DNA of 64,000 bases from NCBI RefSeq assembly GCF_000482545.1, contig NZ_KI519454.1, positions 62,001-126,000 of the forward strand. Reading direction: 5' to 3'. Shown here one piece after another: positions 52,162 to 63,770 of this stretch; position 1 is the first letter of the stretch; each line of letters opens with the position of its first letter. The position numbers and the translations under genes are program-made. Source of the DNA: Arthrobacter sp. 35W (GTDB lineage Bacteria > Actinomycetota > Actinomycetes > Actinomycetales > Micrococcaceae). The notes beneath the pieces were generated by a model, which saw only the letters and a list, made by a program, of their open reading frames with translations, made no database searches and was not told the origin of the DNA.

Positions 52162-52217
52162 AAGTGCCACCTTCTTCCAAGCGGCCGTTTCCGTTATCCG
52201 ATCTTTATGGATTTCTG

Positions 52218-52257
52218 CACATAAATGTGTTGCACGCCACATTCCTGCAGGTAGTCT
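52218..52257 (+). promoter_or_regulatory. possible livK promoter region
   Basis: A 5-bp inverted repeat CACAT-AA-ATGTG (52218-52229) immediately precedes a weak promoter-like pair TTGCAC (52230-52235) and TAGTCT (52252-52257), spacer 16 bp. Leader to the livK start would be about 70 nt. Tentative. Confidence 0.3.
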
Positions 52258-52331
52258 CAGGGAACGTAATTCGGAACGAGCACTGGGACAAGGATGTCTC
52301 GGTGCCGCAGATGCGCTTGGAAGGCAGATCT

Positions 52332-53558
52332 ATGTACCGAAAGAAAGTCATCACCAGCCTGGCAGTTGCCGCCACACTTGGCATGCTGCTCTCATCCTGC
52401 GCCAACCAGGCGTCAACGGGCGGGGCGACCACTGGGAGTGGAAACCGAATCGATATTCCCGCCCTCACCAAGATCGATACACCTGCAGGCGCGGTCCTCC
52501 CGGCCGGCGACGGCAAGGGAACCTGTCCGTCCACCACCACTCTGGGCTACATCGGTGCCGAAACCGGCGCCAATGCCCAGCTGGGCATTAACATTTTCAA
52601 CGGCATCCAGTTGGCCATCAATGAGCACAACGCGGCAAATGCCGGCTGCCAGGTCCAGTTCAAGAAGTTCGACACCGAGGGCGATCCCAACAAGGCCACC
52701 GGCCCTGTCGCCCAGGCAGTCAGTGAAGCGGACATCATCGGCGTCATCGGCCTCCCGTTCTCCGGTGAATCCAAGGCCACGGGCAACATCTTCGAGCAGC
52801 AGGGCCTGGTGCACATCACGCCGTCGGCCACCAACCCGACACTGACCGAAAACGGCTGGACCACCTTCTTCCGTGGTCTGGGCAATGACGCAGTCCAGGG
52901 CCCGGCCGCCGCGAAGTTCCTCACCGGCAAGCTGGAGGCCAAGAAGGTCTACCTGGTCCAGGATGACTCGGACTACGGCATCGGCCTGGGCACGGCAACT
53001 TCCGCAGCGCTGGGCAGTGCACTGGCCGGCACCGACAAGGTCACCACGGGGCAGAAGGACTTCTCCGCCGTAATTTCCAAGATCATCAACTCCAAGGCTG
53101 ACGCCGTCTTCTACTCGGGCTACTACGCCGAGGGTGCGCCGTTCGACCAGCAGCTGGTGGGCAAGGGCTTCACCGGAACGTTTGTTGGCCCGGATGGTGT
53201 GAAGGATGACCAGTTCGTCAAGCTGGCCGGCGATGCCTCCAACAACGCCTACTTCACCTGCCCCTGCATCCCGGGTGAGCTGATCCCGACCTTTGAAAGC
53301 GCCTACAAGAAGCTGGCAAACGCCGAGCCCGGAACGTACTCCATTGAGGGCTACGACGCCGCCACGGTGCTGCTGGCAGGCATCGACAAGGGCAAGCAGG
53401 ACAGGGCTTCGCTGAAGGACTGGGTCAAGAACTACGACGCAGATGGTCTGAGCAAGCACTACAAGTGGAATGACAAGGGCGAGCTCCAGGCCCCCACGGT
53501 GTACGGCTACAAGATTGCCGCCGGCAAGATCGTTCCGATCGGGCCGATCGGCGAGTAG
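52332..53558 (+). CDS. livK: branched-chain amino acid ABC transporter substrate-binding lipoprotein
   Basis: 408 residues. Signal peptide with lipobox LSSC (Cys23) then a type I periplasmic-binding fold: TLGYIGAETGANAQLGINIF, GVIGLPFSGESKATGN, KKVYLVQDDSDYGIGL and YTIEGY-like YSIEGYDAATVLLAGI. ATG 52332 follows GGAAGG. Captures leucine, isoleucine, valine or related amides outside the membrane. Separated from the channel genes by a strong hairpin, so it can be made in excess. Confidence 0.92.
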   Translation: MYRKKVITSLAVAATLGMLLSSCANQASTGGATTGSGNRIDIPALTKIDTPAGAVLPAGDGKGTCPSTTTLGYIGAETGANAQLGINIFNGIQLAINEHNAANAGCQVQFKKFDTEGDPNKATGPVAQAVSEADIIGVIGLPFSGESKATGNIFEQQGLVHITPSATNPTLTENGWTTFFRGLGNDAVQGPAAAKFLTGKLEAKKVYLVQDDSDYGIGLGTATSAALGSALAGTDKVTTGQKDFSAVISKIINSKADAVFYSGYYAEGAPFDQQLVGKGFTGTFVGPDGVKDDQFVKLAGDASNNAYFTCPCIPGELIPTFESAYKKLANAEPGTYSIEGYDAATVLLAGIDKGKQDRASLKDWVKNYDADGLSKHYKWNDKGELQAPTVYGYKIAAGKIVPIGPIGE

Positions 53559-53565
53559 CGGAAAG

Positions 53566-53620
53566 CCAAAGAGGAAATGCTGTGGGGCGCGCAATCGATG
53601 CCCCACAGCATTTTCTTTGG
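53566..53620 (+). terminator. hairpin between livK and livH
   Basis: AAATGCTGTGGGGC (53575-53588) pairs perfectly with 53600-53613; CCAAAGA (53566-53572) and TCTTTGG (53614-53620) extend it across a GG bulge. The TTTT in the right arm makes a terminator or mRNA-stabilising end. Confidence 0.85.
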
Positions 53621-53729
53621 AGACCGCCAGGGCGCAATGCCCGTCCCCTCGTCCCTGATGCAGGCACCCGGCACACACTCCGTGCCGCGTGCAGCGTCTT
53701 CCGGTCCGTAACCCGTTCAGGATGTGACC

Positions 53730-54737
53730 ATGCTAAGTACACTCGCTATGTCCGTACCCGCGGATAGCAATTGGATCAATTTCGATGTTCCAGCCCTTAT
53801 CCAAAACTTCTGGAGCGCCACCTTTGACGGGCTGACCTTCGGAGCCATCTACGCCCTCGTGGCGCTCGGTTACACGCTGGTCTACGGCGTGCTCAACCTC
53901 ATCAACTTTGCCCACTCCGAAGTCTTCATCGTTGGTTGCTACGGTGTGTTCTTCACGCTGAGCTTTCTGGGCTTCGGGCCCTCCGTCCCCAACCTGGACT
54001 TCTGGTCCATTGTGCTGAATCTGGTGCTCGCACTGGTCGTCGCGATGGTGGCGTCGGCCCTGACAGCCTTCGTTGTGGAGCGGGTGGCCTACAAGCCACT
54101 GCGCAAGCGCAACGCCCCGCGCCTGGTCTTTCTGATCACGGCCATTGGCGTTTCCTTCAGCATCCAGTACCTGATCTTCCTCTGGCGCGGCCCCAACCCT
54201 GAGGTTGCCCTGACCATGTTCCGCCCCACACCCATCTTTGACGTCTTCGGCACCATCATCGACTCGCAGCAGCTGGTGATTGTGCTCGCCGCCGTCGTAA
54301 TGATGGTCTTCACCGACCAGTTCATCAGCCGATCCCGGACCGGCCGCGGCATCCGCGCCGTGGCCCAGGATCCGGATACGGCCACGCTCATGGGTGTCAA
54401 CAAGGAACGCATCATCATCACCACCTTCATCATCGGTGGCCTGCTGGCCGGCGCCGCGGCTCTCTTCTACGTGATGAGGATCCCTTCCGGCGTGCAGTAC
54501 AGCGGCGGATTCGTGCTCGGCGTCAAGGCCTTCGCCGCAGCTGTTCTGGGCGGCATCGGCAACGTCCGCGGCGCCCTGCTCGGTGGACTGCTGCTGGGCC
54601 TGATCGGCAACTACGGCCAGATCCTGCTGGGCAGTTCGCAGTGGACGGACGTCGTGGCTTTCGTAGTCCTGGTCCTGGTGCTGCTGGTGCGGCCCGAGGG
54701 CATCCTGGGCACCTCCCTTGGAAGGAGCAAAGCATGA
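53730..54737 (+). CDS. livH: branched-chain amino acid ABC permease LivH
   Basis: 335 residues, about eight membrane helices. Signature GAIYALVALGYTLVYGVLNL INFAH-type start and GLLAGAAALFYVMR, GVKAFAAAVLGGIGNVRGAL are typical. ATG 53730 has AGGA at -10; an in-frame GTG at 53724 is possible. Overlaps livM by 4 bp. Confidence 0.93.
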   Translation: MLSTLAMSVPADSNWINFDVPALIQNFWSATFDGLTFGAIYALVALGYTLVYGVLNLINFAHSEVFIVGCYGVFFTLSFLGFGPSVPNLDFWSIVLNLVLALVVAMVASALTAFVVERVAYKPLRKRNAPRLVFLITAIGVSFSIQYLIFLWRGPNPEVALTMFRPTPIFDVFGTIIDSQQLVIVLAAVVMMVFTDQFISRSRTGRGIRAVAQDPDTATLMGVNKERIIITTFIIGGLLAGAAALFYVMRIPSGVQYSGGFVLGVKAFAAAVLGGIGNVRGALLGGLLLGLIGNYGQILLGSSQWTDVVAFVVLVLVLLVRPEGILGTSLGRSKA

Positions 54738-55963
54738 GCATGGTAGATGGACCCACTCCGCTGCCGGGGGCTAAAGCGAGCCAGGCAGCCGAGGATCGCG
54801 AGGCCGCCAAGTCCGGCCCGGGGACCAGCGCAGACGCTCCCAGGGGCGGCATGTTCAAATCATTCGGTGCACGTTGGAACGCGCTGCCCCGCCAGCAGCA
54901 GTGGGCCTGGCTGACGATCGTGGTGGTGCTGGCCTACCTGCTGCCGGTCATCAATCCGCCGTTGATCAGCACCGAACCCGGCAACAACTTTGCATTGGCC
55001 TGTTTCGACATGGCCCGGTTTGCCCTGATCGCCGTCGGCCTGAACGTGGTGATTGGCTACGCCGGCCTGCTCGACCTGGGGTATGTGGCCTTCTTCGCCG
55101 TCGGCTCCTACACCGCGGCCATGCTGACGAGCCCGGATTCAACCTTCCTGAAGATCCCGTACCTGTGGACAGTGCCGGTGGCCATGGCCGTCGCCATGTT
55201 CTTCGGCGTGGTGCTGGGGGTGCCAACGCTGAGGCTGCGCGGCGATTATCTGGCCATCGTGACGCTGGGCTTCGGTGAGATTGTCCGCCTGCTGGCCACT
55301 CTGATCCCGGCCATGAACGGCCAGGTCGGTTTCCAGAACGTGGGCCATCCGCCCGGACTGGAGGCCGATGGCACACCCATCTTCTCCAACGCGAATGGAA
55401 CGCCCTGGTACTGGCTGGTGCTGACGGTGTTGATCATCGTGCTGCTGCTGGCTGGCAATTTGGAACGCAGCCGTGTGGGCCGTGCCTGGATCGCCATCCG
55501 CGAGGATGAGGACGCCGCCGAAATCATGGGCGTTCCCACGTTCAAGTACAAGGTCTGGGCGTTCGCCATCGGCGCCGGTGTGGGTGGGCTCTCCGGAGCA
55601 CTGTTTGCCGGCCAAGTGGGCTTTGTGAACAACCAGAAGTTCGACGTCGTCACCTCCATCCTGTTTGTCGCCGCCGTCGTCCTCGGTGGCGCCGGCAACA
55701 AGGTCGGCGCCGTCCTTGGCGGTGCGCTGGTCAGCTACATTCCCCTGCGCTTCACGGCCATTGCGGAATACAAGTACCTGATCTTCGGCGTCGCCCTGGT
55801 GCTGATCATGATCTTCCGGTCCCAGGGTCTGCTGCCGGCCCGCCAGCGTCTGCTGGCCTACGGCCGGTTGGCCTACAACCGGGTGGCTGCGTCCGGCAAG
55901 GGGGGCACGCCGCCCTCCGGAGGCGCCCCGGGAACTGCTACATCAACGGAGGCTGGCGCATGA
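54734..55963 (+). CDS. livM: branched-chain amino acid ABC permease LivM
   Basis: 409 residues with a 55-residue hydrophilic N-terminal extension, then about nine helices. VVIGYAGLLDLGYVAFFAVG and TLRLRGDYLAIVTLGFGEIV are the family motifs, and the EAA-like loop is RVGRAWIAIREDEDAAEIMG. Start follows AAGGAG and overlaps livH (ATGA). Confidence 0.93.
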   Translation: MSMVDGPTPLPGAKASQAAEDREAAKSGPGTSADAPRGGMFKSFGARWNALPRQQQWAWLTIVVVLAYLLPVINPPLISTEPGNNFALACFDMARFALIAVGLNVVIGYAGLLDLGYVAFFAVGSYTAAMLTSPDSTFLKIPYLWTVPVAMAVAMFFGVVLGVPTLRLRGDYLAIVTLGFGEIVRLLATLIPAMNGQVGFQNVGHPPGLEADGTPIFSNANGTPWYWLVLTVLIIVLLLAGNLERSRVGRAWIAIREDEDAAEIMGVPTFKYKVWAFAIGAGVGGLSGALFAGQVGFVNNQKFDVVTSILFVAAVVLGGAGNKVGAVLGGALVSYIPLRFTAIAEYKYLIFGVALVLIMIFRSQGLLPARQRLLAYGRLAYNRVAASGKGGTPPSGGAPGTATSTEAGA

Positions 55964-56889
55964 GCACCACGGAACCGGAAATGGCTCCGGAGAACGAACG
56001 CGGGCGGTCCAGCGATGCGCCGGAGATCGACGAGGCCATGATGGCCGAGCAGGGCATCGACATGGAGGTGGCCGAGGCCGTCGCCCCGGACCGCGAGATC
56101 GCCGTCGAGGTTGGCGACAAGCTGGTGGAGGTCCAAAACCTCACCATCAAGTTTGGCGGCCTCGTGGCGCTGGACAACGTCTCCTTCGACATCAAACGCG
56201 GAGAGATCCTCGGCCTGATCGGACCCAATGGGGCCGGCAAGACCACGTGCTTCAATGCCATGACCGGCGTCTACAAGCCCACCAGCGGCAAGATCCTCCT
56301 GGAGGGTACGTCCATTGGTGGGCAGAAGCAGCACAAGATCACCCGCATGGGCTTGGCCCGCACCTTCCAGAACATCCGCCTCTTCGGCGAAATGACGGCT
56401 CTGGAAAATGTCGTGGTGGGCCTCGACGCCCGGCACAGGACCAGTGTGGGTGGGGCGCTGCTGCGCCTGCCCCGGCACATCCGCGAGGAGAAGAGCGCCA
56501 TCGAACGGGGCATGGCCCTGCTGGAGTTTGTGGGCGTGGCCGACCACGCCGCAACCCTGTCGCGGCACCTCTCCTACGGACACCAGCGCCGCCTGGAGAT
56601 CGCACGGGCCCTGGCCACCGATCCCAAGGTGCTGTGCCTGGATGAGCCGGCCGCCGGATTCAACCCGGCGGAGAAGGAGGATCTGATGGCCCTGATCCGC
56701 ACCATCCGCGGAGACGGGTACACGGTGCTCCTCATCGAACATGACATGAAACTTGTCATGGGCGTGACGGACCGCATTGTGGTGTTGGAATTCGGCAAGA
56801 AGATTGCCGACGGCATTCCGTCAGCCATCCGCGAGGATCCGCGGGTTGTTGCGGCCTACCTAGGGGAGCCCGAAGATGACGTTGCTTGA
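55960..56889 (+). CDS. livG: branched-chain amino acid ABC ATP-binding protein LivG
   Basis: 309 residues with an unusual acidic N-terminal extension of about 45. Walker A GPNGAGKTT, signature LSYGHQRRLEIARAL, Walker B VLCLDEPAAGFNP and switch LIEHDMKLVM are intact. Overlaps livM (ATGA) and livF (14 bp). Confidence 0.94.
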   Translation: MSTTEPEMAPENERGRSSDAPEIDEAMMAEQGIDMEVAEAVAPDREIAVEVGDKLVEVQNLTIKFGGLVALDNVSFDIKRGEILGLIGPNGAGKTTCFNAMTGVYKPTSGKILLEGTSIGGQKQHKITRMGLARTFQNIRLFGEMTALENVVVGLDARHRTSVGGALLRLPRHIREEKSAIERGMALLEFVGVADHAATLSRHLSYGHQRRLEIARALATDPKVLCLDEPAAGFNPAEKEDLMALIRTIRGDGYTVLLIEHDMKLVMGVTDRIVVLEFGKKIADGIPSAIREDPRVVAAYLGEPEDDVA

Positions 56890-57589
56890 GTTGAAAGATG
56901 TCTCCGTCCACTACGGGCGGATCAGAGCCATCAACAAGATGTCCTTCGCCGTGAACGAGGGCGAGATCGTGTCGCTGATCGGTGCCAATGGTGCCGGCAA
57001 GACCACCACGATGAAGACCATCTCCGGCCTGCTGACACCGTCCCACGGAAGCATCTCCTTCGCTGGGCAGGACATCACCAAGATGAAGGCCCACATCCGC
57101 GTGGTGCAGGGGATCTCCCAGGCGCCCGAGGGTCGTGGCATCTTCCCCGGCATGACAGTGCTGGAGAACCTGGACATGGGGACCTTCGGCCGCAGGGACA
57201 AGACCGGCGTCCCTGCGGATCTGGAGCGGGTCTTTGACCTCTTCCCCCGATTGAAGGAACGGCAGAAGCAGTACGGCGGCACCATGAGCGGCGGCGAGCA
57301 GCAGATGCTGGCCATTGGCCGAGCCCTGATGTCCAACCCGAAGCTGCTGCTGCTGGACGAGCCCTCCATGGGCCTGGCACCCCAGTTCATCCGGCAGATC
57401 TTCAAGATCATCACCGAGATCAACAAGCAGGGGACCACCATCCTGCTCGTGGAGCAGAACGCCAACCAGGCCCTTGCCCGGGCCGACAGGGCGTTCGTCC
57501 TCGAAACGGGGGAGATCACGCACAGCGGAACCGGCAAGGAACTGCTGGTCAACCCGGCCATCAAGGAGGCCTACCTGGGCGTCGGCTGA
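56876..57589 (+). CDS. livF: branched-chain amino acid ABC ATP-binding protein LivF
   Basis: 237 residues. Walker A GANGAGKTT, signature MSGGEQQMLAIGRALM, Walker B LLLLDEPSMGLAP, switch LVEQNANQAL. Last gene of the liv operon; forms the ATPase heterodimer with LivG. Confidence 0.95.
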   Translation: MTLLELKDVSVHYGRIRAINKMSFAVNEGEIVSLIGANGAGKTTTMKTISGLLTPSHGSISFAGQDITKMKAHIRVVQGISQAPEGRGIFPGMTVLENLDMGTFGRRDKTGVPADLERVFDLFPRLKERQKQYGGTMSGGEQQMLAIGRALMSNPKLLLLDEPSMGLAPQFIRQIFKIITEINKQGTTILLVEQNANQALARADRAFVLETGEITHSGTGKELLVNPAIKEAYLGVG

Positions 57590-57935: not shown

Positions 57936-60140
57936 CTAGGAGGTGGCCGTCCGGCGCGTGCGGCGGACCAGCACCAGGATGCCAAGGGCCATCAGGAATG
58001 CCCCGATGGCGAGCGTGGGGAGGACCGTGGAACCTGTTGCGGCCAGGACGCTCGAGGCGGCAATGACGGTGATGCCGGAGCCCGCAGGGAGGACCACCGC
58101 GATGGCGGGATTGGTGAGGTCAACCGGGGTTGCGGGAGACGCCGGTGTCGCAGGGCCGGTGGGGTCCACGGGGGTTGCGGGGTCAATCGGGTCCGAGGGC
58201 GTTACAGGCGTTACGGGGTCCACCGGGTCCACGGGATCGACAGGGTCAACGGGGTCAACGGGCCCCGCGGCTGAACCGCATCCGGCGTCCGTCGAGCCAA
58301 GGATGCCAATCGCATTGCAGCCCACGTTCACCGGGATGCTCACGGGGATTGATATCGAGAGGTCACCCAGCAGGCCGTCTCCGAGGAGGCCACCGAGCAG
58401 CCCGCCATTGGCGTTGCTGCCGCCGTTGCCGTTGCTTTCCTGGTTGGTTCCGCCAGTGGTGCCGGCGGTGGTTCCTTCGCAGCCGTTGGAGGTGTCGCCG
58501 AGGAGGCCCACCGAGTTGCAGGAGGCGTTCACGGGGACGGTTACGGGCGCCGAGGCCTGGGTGTCTCCCAGGGGTCCGCCGAGCAGCCCGCCGTTGGCGT
58601 TGCTGCCGCCGTTGCCGTTGGTTTCCTGGTTGGTTCCGCCAGTGGTGCCGGCGGTGGTTCCTTCGCAGCCGTTGGAGGTGTCGCCGAGGAGGCCCACCGA
58701 GTTGCAGGAGGCGTTCACGGGGACGGTTACGGGCGCCGAGGCCTGGGTGTCTCCGAGGAGGCCACCGAGCAGCCCGCCGTTGGCGTTGCTGCCGCCGTTG
58801 CCGTTGGTTTCCTGGTTGGTTCCGCCAGTGGTGCCGGCGGTGGTTCCTTCGCAGCCGGTGGAGGTGTCGCCGAGGAGGCCCACCGAGTTGCAGGAGGCGT
58901 TCACGGGGACGGTTACGGGCGCCGATGCCTGGGTGTCGCCCAGGGGTCCGCCGAGCAGCCCGCCGTTCGAGCCACCGTTGGTTCCGTTGGTGTCTTGCTG
59001 GGTTCCACCGGTGGTGGTTCCGGGGGTTCCTTCGCAGCCGGTGGAGGTGTCGCCGAGGAGGCCCACCGAGTTGCAGGAGGCGTTCACGGGGACGGTTACG
59101 GGCGCCGATGCCTGGGTGTCTCCGAGGAGGCCACCGAGCAGCCCGCCATTGGCGTTGCTGCCGCCGTTGCCGTTGGTTTCCTGGTTGGTTCCGCCAGTGG
59201 TGCCGGCGGTGGTTCCTTCGCAGCCGGTGGAGGTGTCGCCGAGGAGGCCCACCGAGTTGCAGGAGGCGTTCACGGGGACGGTTACGGGCGCCGATGCCTG
59301 GGTGTCGCCCAGGGGTCCGCCGAGCAGCCCGCCGTTCGAGCCACCGTTGGTTCCGTTGGTGTCTTGCTGGGTTCCACCGGTGGTGGTTCCGGGGGTTCCT
59401 TCGCAGCCGGTGGAGGTGTCGCCGAGGAGGCCCACCGAGTTGCAGGAGGCGTTCACGGGGACGGTTACGGGCGCCGAGGCCTGGGTGTCTCCGAGGAGGC
59501 CACCGAGCAGCCCGCCATTGGCGTTGCTGCCGCCGTTGCCGTTGGTTTCCTGGTTGGTTCCGCCAGTGGTGCCGGCGGTGGTTCCTTCGCAGCCGGTGGA
59601 GGTGTCGCCGAGGAGGCCCACCGAGTTGCAGGAGGCGTTCACGGGGACGGTTACGGGCGCCGATGCCTGGGTGTCTCCGAGGAGCCCGCCGAGGAGGCCG
59701 CCGCTGGAGTCTGAGTTGGCGTTTGTACTGCCGCTGGCCTCGGTTGCGGTGTTCCCCGGCTGGCCTCCCGCCGCAGTGCTTTCGGTGCTGCCGCCGACGG
59801 CAACAGCATTGCCTGCGACGTTGACCGGGATGCTGATGGAGGCGCCAGCCTGAAGGCCGCCAAACAGCCCCAGACCATCGGAATCCCACTGGCTGGCCGG
59901 CGTTGACGAATCGGACGTGGGGGTCTGGGCGGTGCTGCTGCCGCCCTGATTGAGAACCCCTAGGGAATTGCCGGTGATATCGACGGGAATGGTGGCAGGA
60001 ACGGCCACTTGGATGGCGCCGAGCAGGCCGCCATTGCTGGAATCATGCTGGTCCGAGGCGGATGCAGTCCCTGCCCCAAGGGCCAACAGCCCTGTGGCAA
60101 ACACGGCTCCGCAGAGGGTTCTGCGAACGAAGATACGCAT
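57936..60140 (-). CDS. cell-wall protein with seven chaplin-like repeats and LAATG sortase motif
   Basis: 734 residues. Sec signal peptide ([19 protein letters not shown], cleavage near ASA-SD). Two cysteine-free repeats come first, then seven almost identical repeats of about 61 residues with core [20 protein letters not shown] and a second Cys in GCEG; a divergent eighth ([14 protein letters not shown]) follows. The paired cysteines, [13 protein letters not shown] pattern and beta-rich core resemble streptomycete chaplins. A Pro/Asp/Val-rich stalk ([12 protein letters not shown]) leads to LAATG at residues 699-703, a hydrophobic helix and RRTRR: an LAXTG-type anchor used by class E sortases and by long chaplins. 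Start ATG follows TAGGAGA. No sortase gene in the window. Surface coating or adhesion is inferred. Confidence 0.8.
58402..59703 (-). repeat. tandem coding repeats of 183-186 bp (seven copies)
   Basis: The anchor CCCACCGAGTTGCAGG recurs at 58507, 58693, 58879, 59062, 59248, 59431 and 59617, giving steps of 186, 186, 183, 186, 183 and 186 bp. Two subtypes differ in their linker ([15 protein letters not shown] versus [14 protein letters not shown]) and run A-B-A-B-A-A-A from the N-terminus. Boundaries approximate. Confidence 0.92.
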
Positions 60141-60228: not shown

Positions 60229-61341
60229 TCAGTCGGGGCGGGAGCCCGGGCGGTCGGAGAGGGATGTGGGCAGCGGCCACGAGTGCGCAGATGCGGACAT
60301 CGAGTGGCCGAAGGTATTCAAGAAGAGGGATCCGGGCAGGACGGCACTTGCAGCCGCTCCCTGCCCACCGAGTCCGGAACTGGACGAGGCAAGCCCGGAG
60401 GCCGTGCCGGCAGCCGGTGTGGCGGCCTGGCAGGGCAGGGCAAGGGCGTCTCCCGCTATGCAGTCCTCGCCGGAGGCTCCTGTGGACGGAGCTGTAGCCG
60501 AGCCCTGCAAGCCTGAGGCAGGCAGGCTGCCAGCGGCCGCGGAAAGCGCTGCCAAGACCGGGGAGGTTCCCCGCGTGGCGCTGGACTGCGGGGCGCCGAT
60601 TGCCGACGCCGCTGCATCGTTCGCAGCGGTGGCTCCGGGGATGGAACCGTCGACGCCGGCAGTGCTGCCGCCGGGGGTCATTGTTCCTGGACCGCCGGAG
60701 ACTGGATAATCGGTCCCACTGCCTGCGGCCGGGGGAGTGGTTCCCGCTGTGCCGGGACCGGTGGGCGTGCCCGGCACGGTCGGCGTACCGGGCGTACCAG
60801 GCACCTGCGGGATGACCTCGGTGACGCCATCAACCATGGGCTGGACAACGTCCACGACGCCCCCAACAACCGGCGCGGTTCCGTCAAGAATTCCAGCTGC
60901 GGGCTCCGTGACGCCATTGACGATGCCGCCCACAATCGGCAGCGCACCCAGTCCGGTGTCCACGGCGTCGACGATCCCCAGTACAGGGTTCGTGGCGGTG
61001 GAAACGGGATCCGGTCCGACCACGGTGCCCACGATCGGCACCTGCCCGATGGCGGAATCAGCCAGCCCGACGACGGGCTGAAGCACGTTTCCGAGGGCGC
61101 CGCCCACTCCGGGTGCCGGTGCGGGTGCCGGAAGAATGGTGCCGACCAAGCCGCCAACCGCACCCGACAAGGAGCCCAGCAGGCCGCTGCGGTTGTCGTT
61201 GCCGCTCTCGTGTCCTGCAGCGAATGCGCTGGAGGCTCCAATGGCAAGCCATAGCAGGGTGGCGGCGGCTGTGCCCAGAATCAGTCGAACTGTTCTGGGC
61301 ACGAGAGTGCGCCACGCGAGACCATACGCTTGCTGCCGCAC
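60229..61341 (-). CDS. secreted Gly/Val/Pro-rich protein, unknown function
   Basis: About 370 residues from GTG 61341, which has a GGGGGTGG purine run upstream; an in-frame GTG at 61401 is possible but would abut a palindrome and give a very long n-region. A signal peptide (VRLILGTAAATLLWLAIGAS, ending SAFAA) leads to repetitive Gly/Val segments (PIVGTVV, PIVGGIVNGV, PVVGGVVDVV) and a PGTPGTPTVPGTPTGPGT stretch. Two late cysteines (EDCIAG, LPCQA). No LPXTG-like anchor. Probably part of the same surface layer as the neighbouring chaplin-like protein; unrecognised family. Confidence 0.6.
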   Translation of the reverse strand: MRQQAYGLAWRTLVPRTVRLILGTAAATLLWLAIGASSAFAAGHESGNDNRSGLLGSLSGAVGGLVGTILPAPAPAPGVGGALGNVLQPVVGLADSAIGQVPIVGTVVGPDPVSTATNPVLGIVDAVDTGLGALPIVGGIVNGVTEPAAGILDGTAPVVGGVVDVVQPMVDGVTEVIPQVPGTPGTPTVPGTPTGPGTAGTTPPAAGSGTDYPVSGGPGTMTPGGSTAGVDGSIPGATAANDAAASAIGAPQSSATRGTSPVLAALSAAAGSLPASGLQGSATAPSTGASGEDCIAGDALALPCQAATPAAGTASGLASSSSGLGGQGAAASAVLPGSLFLNTFGHSMSASAHSWPLPTSLSDRPGSRPD

Positions 61342-61403
61342 TCCAACCACCCCCAGATGGATATTGTCGAGCCGTATGATCGACAGCCTAAACCTGCCCA
61401 CCG

Positions 61404-61446: not shown

Positions 61447-62544
61447 CTATGCGGGCGGAGCCTGGTCGTTGGGGTAGACGACGCCGAGCTGGGCACGGAC
61501 GTCGTCGAACAGTTCCATGATGGCCAGCGAATCCGACAGCGGCATGGTGGGACTCTCCAACAATCCCGACTGGATGCAGCGGGTGACCTCGCGGAGCTGG
61601 TAGGTGTAGCCGGACCCCGGAATGTCGAAGGATTCTTCGCGCTGGGTGTCCCAGCCGGTGCTGATGCGGATGGTGCGGGGGTTGTTGACGGACTTCACAG
61701 ATTCGATCATGCCTTTGGTGCCGGCGACCACTGCAGCCCGGGGTCCGTGCGAGGTCAGGTAGCTCATCAGCTGGGCCTGCGCGCCGCCGTCGTACTCCAG
61801 CGTCAAGGCATTCTGGCTGTCGACACCGAAATCAGTGATGGTGCCGGTGGCCTGCACGCGGGACGGCGCGCCAAGAGCACCCCAGGCCCAGAGCAGCGGG
61901 TAGACGGTGACGTCCAGCAGGGCGCCGCCGCCATCGGAGGGGTTCCAGATGCGGGCGGAGAGGTCCAGCGGGGCGGGGAAGCCGAGATCGGCGCGCACCC
62001 ATTTCACGGTGCCGATCTCTCCGGAGGCGATGACGGAGAGTGCACGCTGGATGCCGGGGACGAAGCGGGCCCAGACGGCCTCCATCAGGAACAGGCCGCG
62101 CTCGCGTGCCAGCTCGATCAGGACCTTTGTTTCGGCGGCGTTGATGGTCAGGGCCTTTTCGCAGAGAACATGCTTGCCGGCCTCCAGTGCGGCCTTCGCC
62201 ACGCGGTAGTGCTGGGCATGCGGGGTGGCGATGTAGACAACGTCCACGGCCGGGTCCTGCACCAGCTGCTCATAGCCGGCCGGTCCCAGTCCGTCCGCGC
62301 CACCATCGAAGTAGTGCGAGGCGAACCCAAAGCGGGCCGCGAAGTCCGCCGCCTTGGGCTCAGTTCGGGAGCTGACCGCCTGCAGAACGGCGTCCTCCAG
62401 GAGGGCGAGATCGGCCGTCACGGTGCCGGCGATGCCGCCCGTGGCGACGACGCCCCAGCGCAGGGCAGTGCCGGTGGCGGCAAGGGTTTCGGGGTTGTCC
62501 GTGGTGTACCAGTCGGGCTTGGCAATGTAGCGCGGTTCAGTCAT
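61447..62544 (-). CDS. Gfo/Idh/MocA family oxidoreductase
   Basis: 365 residues. N-terminal Rossmann fold WGVVATGGIAGTVTADL, the catalytic-lysine motif GKHVLCEKALTINAAET and a C-terminal alpha/beta domain with SDGGGALLDVTVYPLLWAWG. NAD(P)-dependent sugar or cyclitol dehydrogenases belong here; substrate not deducible. ATG 62544 chosen as the start of the conserved sequence; a longer in-frame extension upstream has no homologous character. Confidence 0.88.
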   Translation of the reverse strand: MTEPRYIAKPDWYTTDNPETLAATGTALRWGVVATGGIAGTVTADLALLEDAVLQAVSSRTEPKAADFAARFGFASHYFDGGADGLGPAGYEQLVQDPAVDVVYIATPHAQHYRVAKAALEAGKHVLCEKALTINAAETKVLIELARERGLFLMEAVWARFVPGIQRALSVIASGEIGTVKWVRADLGFPAPLDLSARIWNPSDGGGALLDVTVYPLLWAWGALGAPSRVQATGTITDFGVDSQNALTLEYDGGAQAQLMSYLTSHGPRAAVVAGTKGMIESVKSVNNPRTIRISTGWDTQREESFDIPGSGYTYQLREVTRCIQSGLLESPTMPLSDSLAIMELFDDVRAQLGVVYPNDQAPPA

Positions 62545-62702
62545 GCGGCCATTCTGCCATTGGCGCTGGGCCGGGCGCGGACCGGCGGTGGTAGATGACG
62601 GAGCGGGCCGCGGGGCAAGGATGCCGGGCCATGGATACGGGGTATCGTGGCCGGAACGTCCATTTCCGGTCGTGTCTGTGGGGAGTCTGCGAAGGAGTGG
62701 AT

Positions 62703-63770
62703 ATGAGGGTGCTGAGGCGTGTGGTTTTTCCAGTGGCATGGCTGTTGGTTTTTGGGGTGATTGCGGTGGCGCTGGTCAAGATGGCCTTCATCGACGGACT
62801 CAAAGAGGAGACGGGGCAGTTGGCCCCGCATGCGGCGGTGGCCGCTCCGCAGGTGCCGGTGGTCCTGGGCACCGTGGTCAACACGGTTGAGCTGAAGGGG
62901 ACGGTGTCCTCCGACCCGGACGCCACGGCCAAGGCGACGGCGGCCGGGAAGGTGGTGCACTTCTTCGTGGAGGCCGGCGAGAAGGTAGCCCGCGGCGACA
63001 AGCTGCTGCAGATCCGTTCCGAGGAAGTGCCCGACGCCGCCCCGGCCGCCCCGGCGGCTCCGTCGGCTCCGTCGGCGGGGGAGGCGCCAGCCGCACCGGT
63101 CTACACCTATACCAATGTCCTCTCGCCTGTGGATGGCACAGTGGCGACGCTGCCGCTGCTGCCCAACCAGCAGGTGGGCATCGGCGACGCCGCGGCCACG
63201 ATTGCCACCGGCACCTTCACCATCAACGCACCTTTGGATGCGGCGGCGCAGTACCGGTTGCTTGGCCGTCCCACCACCGCCACAGGTTTCATCACCGGTG
63301 GTCCGGGTGCCTTCACCTGCCTGGACGTCAAGACCGGGAATGCTCCCTCCACGGGCGGCACACCGGCGGGCGGGCTGTCGGTTCCGGCGGCCCCGGCAGG
63401 ACCGGGTGCACCGTCCGACGGCGGGGCCGGGGGAGCGGTGACCGGCACCGTGAGCTGCGGCGTCCCCTCAACGACAGCGGTGTTCGCCGGGCTGGGCGCC
63501 ACCGTGACAGTCAGCGCCGGCGAGGCGCGGGATGTCCTCACTGTTCCACTGACGGCCGTCAAGGGCAGCGTCACCGAGGGAACCGTTTGGGTGCCGGCGG
63601 CCAGTGGCGAAGCCGAGCAGCGCAAGGTCACCCTGGGTTTGAACGACGGCGCCAAGGTCGAGGTGGTCCAGGGGCTCGCAGCGGGTGAATCCGTGCTGGA
63701 ATTCGTCCCCGGCGCACCCGCCCCGGAGCAGCCGGGCATGTCCGGCGGCATGGTCCGGATGGGCGGTTGA
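62703..63770 (+). CDS. HlyD/RND-type efflux adaptor subunit
   Basis: 355 residues. An N-terminal membrane anchor (RVVFPVAWLLVFGVIAVALV) and an extracellular part with a lipoyl/biotinyl-like half-motif (GKVVHFFVEAGEKVARGDKL), an Ala/Pro-rich insert where the coiled-coil hairpin would be, then LSPVDGTVATLPLLPNQQVG and a C-terminal barrel with VLTVPLTAVKGSVTEGTVWV. ATG 62703 follows GAAGGAG. It precedes an ABC ATPase by 2 bp, so together they form a MacAB-like export system. Two cysteines in the middle domain (FTCLD, SCGVP) may pair. Confidence 0.8.
   Translation: MRVLRRVVFPVAWLLVFGVIAVALVKMAFIDGLKEETGQLAPHAAVAAPQVPVVLGTVVNTVELKGTVSSDPDATAKATAAGKVVHFFVEAGEKVARGDKLLQIRSEEVPDAAPAAPAAPSAPSAGEAPAAPVYTYTNVLSPVDGTVATLPLLPNQQVGIGDAAATIATGTFTINAPLDAAAQYRLLGRPTTATGFITGGPGAFTCLDVKTGNAPSTGGTPAGGLSVPAAPAGPGAPSDGGAGGAVTGTVSCGVPSTTAVFAGLGATVTVSAGEARDVLTVPLTAVKGSVTEGTVWVPAASGEAEQRKVTLGLNDGAKVEVVQGLAAGESVLEFVPGAPAPEQPGMSGGMVRMGG

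Follow-up and report, generated by a model that had tools for sequence, protein, structure and literature searches.

A chaplin-like gene and its predicted secreted partner

The window, by which we mean the whole 64,000-nucleotide stretch that was analyzed, carries on its minus strand a gene whose product appears, judging from its sequence, to be a cell-wall-anchored surface protein of ten chaplin-like units (Table 1). The open reading frame and seven near-identical repeats of the original prediction were confirmed by the ORF list, Tandem Repeats Finder, and a unit profile, and the signal peptide, Pro/Asp stalk, LAATG motif, hydrophobic segment, and basic tail were recognized again on reading the translation. 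To these seven repeats, the unit profile added two Cys-free units ahead of them and one diverged Cys unit after them. Tandem Repeats Finder reported a 186-bp unit in 7.2 copies (88% matches) and a 369-bp double unit in 3.6 copies (96%), and the seven repeat starts fall at residues 147, 209, 270, 332, 393, 455, and 517, a spacing of 61 or 62. Pairwise comparison of the 47-aa repeat cores gave 0-7 synonymous and 0-5 nonsynonymous codon differences, a pattern that looks as it would after recent in-frame expansion. The first cysteine pair lies at residues 171/184 and the last at 608/621, with one extra cysteine within the signal peptide; LAATG occupies residues 699-703, and RRTRR forms the C-terminal tail. 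The N-terminus is 48-66% identical to those of congeners across 33-52 residues.

Table 1. Positions of the chaplin-like gene, its parts, and its neighbors in the window
Feature	Positions	Strand	Basis
Multi-unit chaplin-like LAXTG surface protein (predicted), 734 aa	57936..60140	-	ORF, Pfam, unit profile
Signal peptide, about residues 1-29	60054..60140	-	Read from sequence; congener N-terminus identity
Unit 1, Cys-free, residues 33-78	59907..60044	-	Unit profile; alone, PF03777 14.6 bits (<21)
Unit 2, Cys-free, residues 87-132	59745..59882	-	Unit profile; alone, PF03777 21 bits, equal to the cut-off
Seven near-identical Cys units and linkers, residues 147-582	58395..59702	-	Repeat finding, unit profile
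Last, diverged Cys unit, residues 583-626	58263..58394	-	Unit profile; alone, PF03777 17.8 bits (<21)
Pro/Asp-rich stalk and spacer, residues 627-698	58047..58262	-	Read from sequence
LAATG signal, hydrophobic segment, basic tail, residues 699-734	57939..58046	-	Read from sequence
Partner: predicted secreted protein, C-terminal tail PGSRPD, start codon uncertain	60229..61401	-	Translation, profile, neighborhood
Gfo/Idh/MocA oxidoreductase, flanking the pair from outside	61447..62739	-	Pfam, neighborhood

Two long antisense ORFs lie opposite the repeat array (57943-59853, plus strand, 636 aa; 58130-59824, plus strand, 564 aa) and are most likely by-products of GC-rich repeats. The minus-strand frame is favored because it has same-frame homologues, a Pfam match, and an AGGAGA just 5' of its ATG.

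Adjoining the chaplin-like gene on its upstream side is the partner gene, which the original prediction did not include. Its product is hydrophobic in an N-terminal segment, has stretches rich in PV or in Pro, and ends in PGSRPD; no LAXTG was seen in its translation. Relatives occupy the same position at many loci and end in tails such as DPGSSPD, DTDTTPD, TDVSPD, or DIPVSPG. A Pfam search of 31 members of the partner family at E 0.01 returned no match, and NCBIfam returned four matches, each in one member (best E 1.2e-4). The partner is a predicted secreted protein that fits no known family. Neither the partner (pLDDT 54.6, pTM 0.26) nor a single chaplin-like unit (pLDDT 62.6, pTM 0.20) was folded with confidence by AlphaFold, and the partner model consisted of helices at low confidence save in the N-terminal segment.

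Along the plus strand, the window runs icd, liv operon, chaplin-like gene (minus), partner (minus), and Gfo/Idh gene (minus); the livJHMGF-type branched-chain amino acid transport operon itself lies at 52164-57589 (plus), after purH and icd. The region after icd was compared in 15 of 22 congeners: icd-livJHMGF was present in all 15, and a Gfo/Idh gene followed livF in 14, the remaining region being cut off by a contig end. Its strand was opposite to that of livF in 11 and the same in 3. None of the 15 regions held a unit or partner match. The pair sits between livF and Gfo/Idh in the window and is missing from that place in 14 congeners; nine of the 15 carry a Cys-free pair elsewhere in the genome. 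In another genus (g31), five loci (L050-L054) have the pair flanked by icd and Gfo/Idh as well, but inverted relative to the window: the partner adjoins icd, and no liv operon intervenes. A locus of a third genus (L219) matches the window, with the Gfo/Idh gene, the partner, and the chaplin-like gene consecutive on one strand. The window's lineage may either have kept an old site of the pair or have gained the pair there.

Relation to chaplins and the predicted wall anchor

Kinship to chaplins, as originally predicted, was upheld at the level of the whole protein, which matched PF03777 with 44.9 bits (cut-off 21; E 1e-11) in ten stretches, and of profiles, where the order's units aligned with Streptomyces-like domains at probability 96.8 and E 2.9e-10 over 32 columns. 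In the profile search with one repeat that had been proposed as a check, a single repeat by itself had no match in Pfam. Judged by the whole-protein score and by the class E sortase described below, neither outcome that was to refute the prediction came about. Five of seven relatives tested passed the PF03777 cut-off, with a maximum of 130.2 bits; L222 reached 17.3 bits, below it, and L211 had no match. "Order" here is the window's order as the search tool defines it, for which the name Micrococcales is our inferred label; "Streptomyces-like" is likewise an inferred label for a group of 6.1-9.9 Mb genomes that encode chaplins of both the short and the long type and, in one instance, a rodlin-like ORF.

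Chaplin domains are defined by three GN motifs (PMC13251363). The Cys repeats of the window carry SCN in place of GN, and the profile-profile match ends ahead of the segment that bears the third GN and the second chaplin cysteine. In addition, the protein has ten units, not the two chaplin domains of long chaplins.

PF03777 returned nothing from the window's own genome at E 0.001, where it missed even the window gene, so its failure to find short chaplins there is no evidence of their absence. Over the phylum it matched 14 of 396 genomes, 3 from the window's order and 11 from a single Streptomyces-like genus. Because this model missed the window gene and matched so few genomes, a unit profile (A1) was built for the order-wide searches. 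Searches with the 734-aa protein (P0001) gave no match in a plasmid collection, three weak matches among solved structures, of which the best reached E 0.0082 and two covered the Pro-rich stalk, and 21 loci in a scan of named records. Most of these loci were stalk-region matches in unrelated bacteria; for two records from Agromyces (L187 and L194), the match lay chiefly in the unit region.

The original prediction also depended on a class E sortase. A PF04203 search of the genome (G000) identified a single sortase, which belongs to class E (NF033747, 242.4 bits; cut-off 160) and has SrtE1 among its solved-structure relatives; its gene adjoins a glutamine-amidotransferase-like ORF and a PASTA-like ORF, as read from sequence. 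Class E sortases anchor the S. coelicolor chaplins through LAXTG (PMC5148588), and the window protein has the C-terminus of a long chaplin, with LAATG followed by a hydrophobic segment and a basic tail, while the NCBIfam model LAXTG_small_WW scored only 18 bits on it (cut-off 65). Across the order, 352 of 396 genomes have a class E sortase: all 60 with chaplin-like proteins and 292 of the remaining 336 (Fisher p 6e-4). With the enzyme near universal, its presence is consistent with anchoring and weighs little as evidence.

Chaplin homology (PF03777 and profile-profile) also counts in favor of a true chaplin-type hydrophobic amyloid coat, a layer of the kind originally suggested, in which cross-beta fibrils would make the surface water repellent, as on Streptomyces aerial hyphae. 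The hydropathy of the window's units (0.14 to 0.95) averages 0.32, a value that would not stand out among 12 Streptomyces-like domains, which span -0.10 to 0.77, and fibrils form in vitro from reduced chaplins and Cys-free ChpE (PMC3079736) and from ChpF (PMC5618249). Set against such a coat are the hydrophilic linkers (-1.29), the mean of -0.11 for the mature chain, and the lower hydropathy of the window's units relative to those of congeners (0.32 versus 0.62). We regard a water-repellent amyloid coat as rather unlikely.

Distribution and cysteine order among relatives

P0001 matched 13 of the 23 genomes of the genus at E 0.001, counting the window's own, and 76 of 295 in the family, stalk-only matches included; weak or stalk-only matches in these searches (e.g., G009 and G015) were left out of the orthologue count. 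Clear unit proteins occur in ten congeners (L003-L012) and are Cys-free in every one. The unit profile matched 60 of 396 genomes of the order at E 1e-5, from 19 of 109 genera, and 83 frames, some of which are fragments (e.g., L029, L049, and L208), were retained. The original prediction that seven repeats far exceed the two of long chaplins holds true as a count; many units are, however, usual in the order (4-10 in 73 of the 83 frames), and repeat number was rejected as an anomaly there. One frame (L150, in G131) exceeds 1,250 aa, with 12-14 unit-like stretches (the count of 14 made at a low score limit), a partner-type tail upstream, and no anchor in the available piece. In another genome (G098), the chaplin-like gene is divided between two contig ends (C11 and C12), probably through an assembly break in the repeats.

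The partner's profile (A2) matched 64 of 396 genomes of the order at E 1e-10, namely 51 of the 60 with chaplin-like proteins versus 13 of the 336 others (Fisher p 2e-42). Coordinates of both matches were at hand for 42 of the 51 genomes, and in 41 of these the partner lay upstream of the unit match, on the same strand and within 1,506 bp; for G859 and G770, in which contig breaks divide the gene, the count uses the unit match that shares a contig with the partner. The 42nd genome is the split G098, in which a unit match lies beside the partner on contig C12. Nine of the 60 genomes had no A2 match at E 1e-10, and a diverged partner-type tail lies upstream in some A2-negative loci (e.g., L136, L174, L177, and L216). 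Conversely, 13 genomes had an A2 match and no unit match; in a second search of six of these, unit matches came no lower than E 0.196, so that A2 may also be picking up proteins that are solitary or of low complexity. A rule based on the tail assigned a partner to 62 of 93 frames, the remainder comprising 10 chaplins of the Streptomyces-like group, frames that lie at the edge of a locus, variants of the tail that the rule missed (L045, L136, L174, L177, L216, L219, and L220), and some for which none was called (e.g., L042, L129, L130, L206, L209, and L225).

The linked partner and the unit core conserved across families are not what would be predicted if the repeats were a length-variable spacer or stalk that projects an adhesive tip through the wall or capsule, with length and not assembly being what matters. 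Units do vary from 2 to 14 per retained frame, fragments included, and the window's repeats are near-identical in DNA, both of which speak for such a stalk. On balance, a mere spacer seems to us improbable, more so than the amyloid coat.

Among the 515 units of the 83 frames, cysteines number two in 67 units, one in 1, and none in 447. The two cysteines are 13 apart in 65 of the 67 Cys units and 14 apart in 2, and for 66 of 67 the first stands 5 residues past the core Pro, most commonly in the context SCN or GCN, occupying the position of Gly in the chaplin GN. In all 19 Streptomyces-like domains, by comparison, the spacing is 18 and the offset from Pro is 4. The chaplin register (C-GN, second cysteine 18 on) was not found in the order's Cys units, and the initial equation of the window's pair with the chaplin pair was not borne out (offset 5 and spacing 13 versus 4 and 18).

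Cysteine pairs are absent from 62 of the 83 frames; in all 21 that have them, the array as seen opens with a Cys-free unit and closes with one that carries a pair, and 19 of the 21 are strictly sorted, Cys-free units preceding Cys units. Two frames depart from strict order, with the patterns 002022 (L209, in G886) and 00020222 (L225, in G934). The 21 frames span 8 genera and 3 families but are not independent, 8 coming from one genus; at the level of genera, all 8 share the same direction. In two of them, the first unit seen is possibly not the true one, since L029 starts at a contig edge and L208 has masked bases. A Streptomyces-like protein with a mixed pattern (L060) shows the opposite order, with Cys-containing units before Cys-free, and ChpB runs the same way as L060 (PMC13251363). 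An anchor within the last 70 residues was of LAXTG type in 14 of the 21 frames and of LPXTG type in 4, and was not found in 3 (L207, L208, and L209), to which the label "wall-proximal" does not extend. The LPXTG-type signals belong to L206, L212, L224, and L225.

The near-identical copies that make up the run of Cys units in the window could mean that the order of cysteines has no function and arose simply because a single old C-terminal Cys unit was duplicated in tandem. A pair of the same kind is, however, kept in the last unit in 3 families and 8 genera. In L207, L208, and L222, moreover, the last unit is the sole Cys unit, so duplication by itself does not account for the pair's persistence. 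We consider a by-product without function doubtful.

A proposed two-gene surface module and comparison with known systems

Unit homology, gene pairing, the sorting signal, the sortase gene, and the cysteine pattern all derive from sequence comparison, and the wall signal, many units, and linked partner lead us to favor, with moderate confidence, a two-gene surface module in which a sortase-anchored chaplin-like protein and a secreted partner act as a coat or adhesin. The two proteins would be made together and secreted, and the class E sortase would join the chaplin-like protein to peptidoglycan at LAATG. The Pro/Asp stalk would then span the wall and display the ten short beta-prone units. 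In the Cys units beside the stalk, a disulfide, suggested by the near all-or-none pairing of cysteines, may close each loop between cysteines 13 apart and give a stiff base, while the Cys-free units at the tip would be free to bind one another, the partner, or a surface. The product may thus be a surface coat or adhesin serving attachment or aggregation, much as Streptomyces chaplins also have a role in attachment (PMC4255298, PMC8166509). A broader proposal, which we put forward only tentatively, is that of an order-wide two-gene surface system with its own tail-tagged secreted partner family and its own cysteine geometry, in which wall-proximal units are disulfide locked and distal units can assemble freely, forming a sister of the chaplin/rodlin coat that would serve attachment in place of aerial growth.

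Chaplins without these cysteines are known, namely ChpE and the second domain of ChpB (PMC13251363, PMC3079736). Streptomyces chaplins do not require their cysteines for fibrils in vitro, and those of ChpH are required in vivo (PMC3079736, PMC5618249); the role of the chaplin cysteines is described as incompletely understood (PMC5618249). The presence of Cys-free and Cys units in one chain offers a natural test of their function.

The protein is like the Streptomyces long chaplins ChpA-C in its signal peptide, repeated PV-VPVN-x-x-GN core, LAXTG signal, and class E sortase. It differs from them in having ten units versus two, a cysteine pair one residue later and 13 versus 18 apart, long hydrophilic linkers, and a new partner as its upstream neighbor. 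Chaplins are known chiefly as proteins of Streptomyces aerial growth, and the rodlins of Streptomyces provide a precedent for a second secreted protein encoded near chaplin genes; at L056, an ORF that we take to be rodlin-like is close to the gene for a long chaplin, the two being separated by a short-chaplin frame. The partner was rejected as a rodlin on sequence, its profile showing no similarity to this one rodlin-like protein (hhalign probability 0.04). Among the open-licence papers listed in our searches, we saw no description of the partner, the cysteine register, or the cysteine order, nor of the pair's place between livF and Gfo/Idh.

A further parallel is found in CwpA and CwpB of Actinoplanes missouriensis, SrtE-dependent, wall-anchored hydrophobic proteins that are encoded in an operon and that their authors compare with long chaplins (PMC13251363). 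Unlike the window protein, they lack chaplin domains, by the authors' conclusion (PMC13251363), and both are wall anchored, whereas the window's partner showed no LAXTG. A chaplin-like protein was also reported in 2013 from Arthrobacter chlorophenolicus, a nonsporulating rod-coccus (PMC4255298). Both the occurrence of such a protein in Arthrobacter and the authors' suggestion that attachment might predate the chaplin role in aerial growth have already been published (PMC4255298). The portion of that account available to us does not deal with architecture, cysteine pattern, partner, or a survey of relatives (PMC4255298). Through a multi-unit, partner-linked form that extends across another order, the possible origin of chaplins as attachment proteins would become testable.
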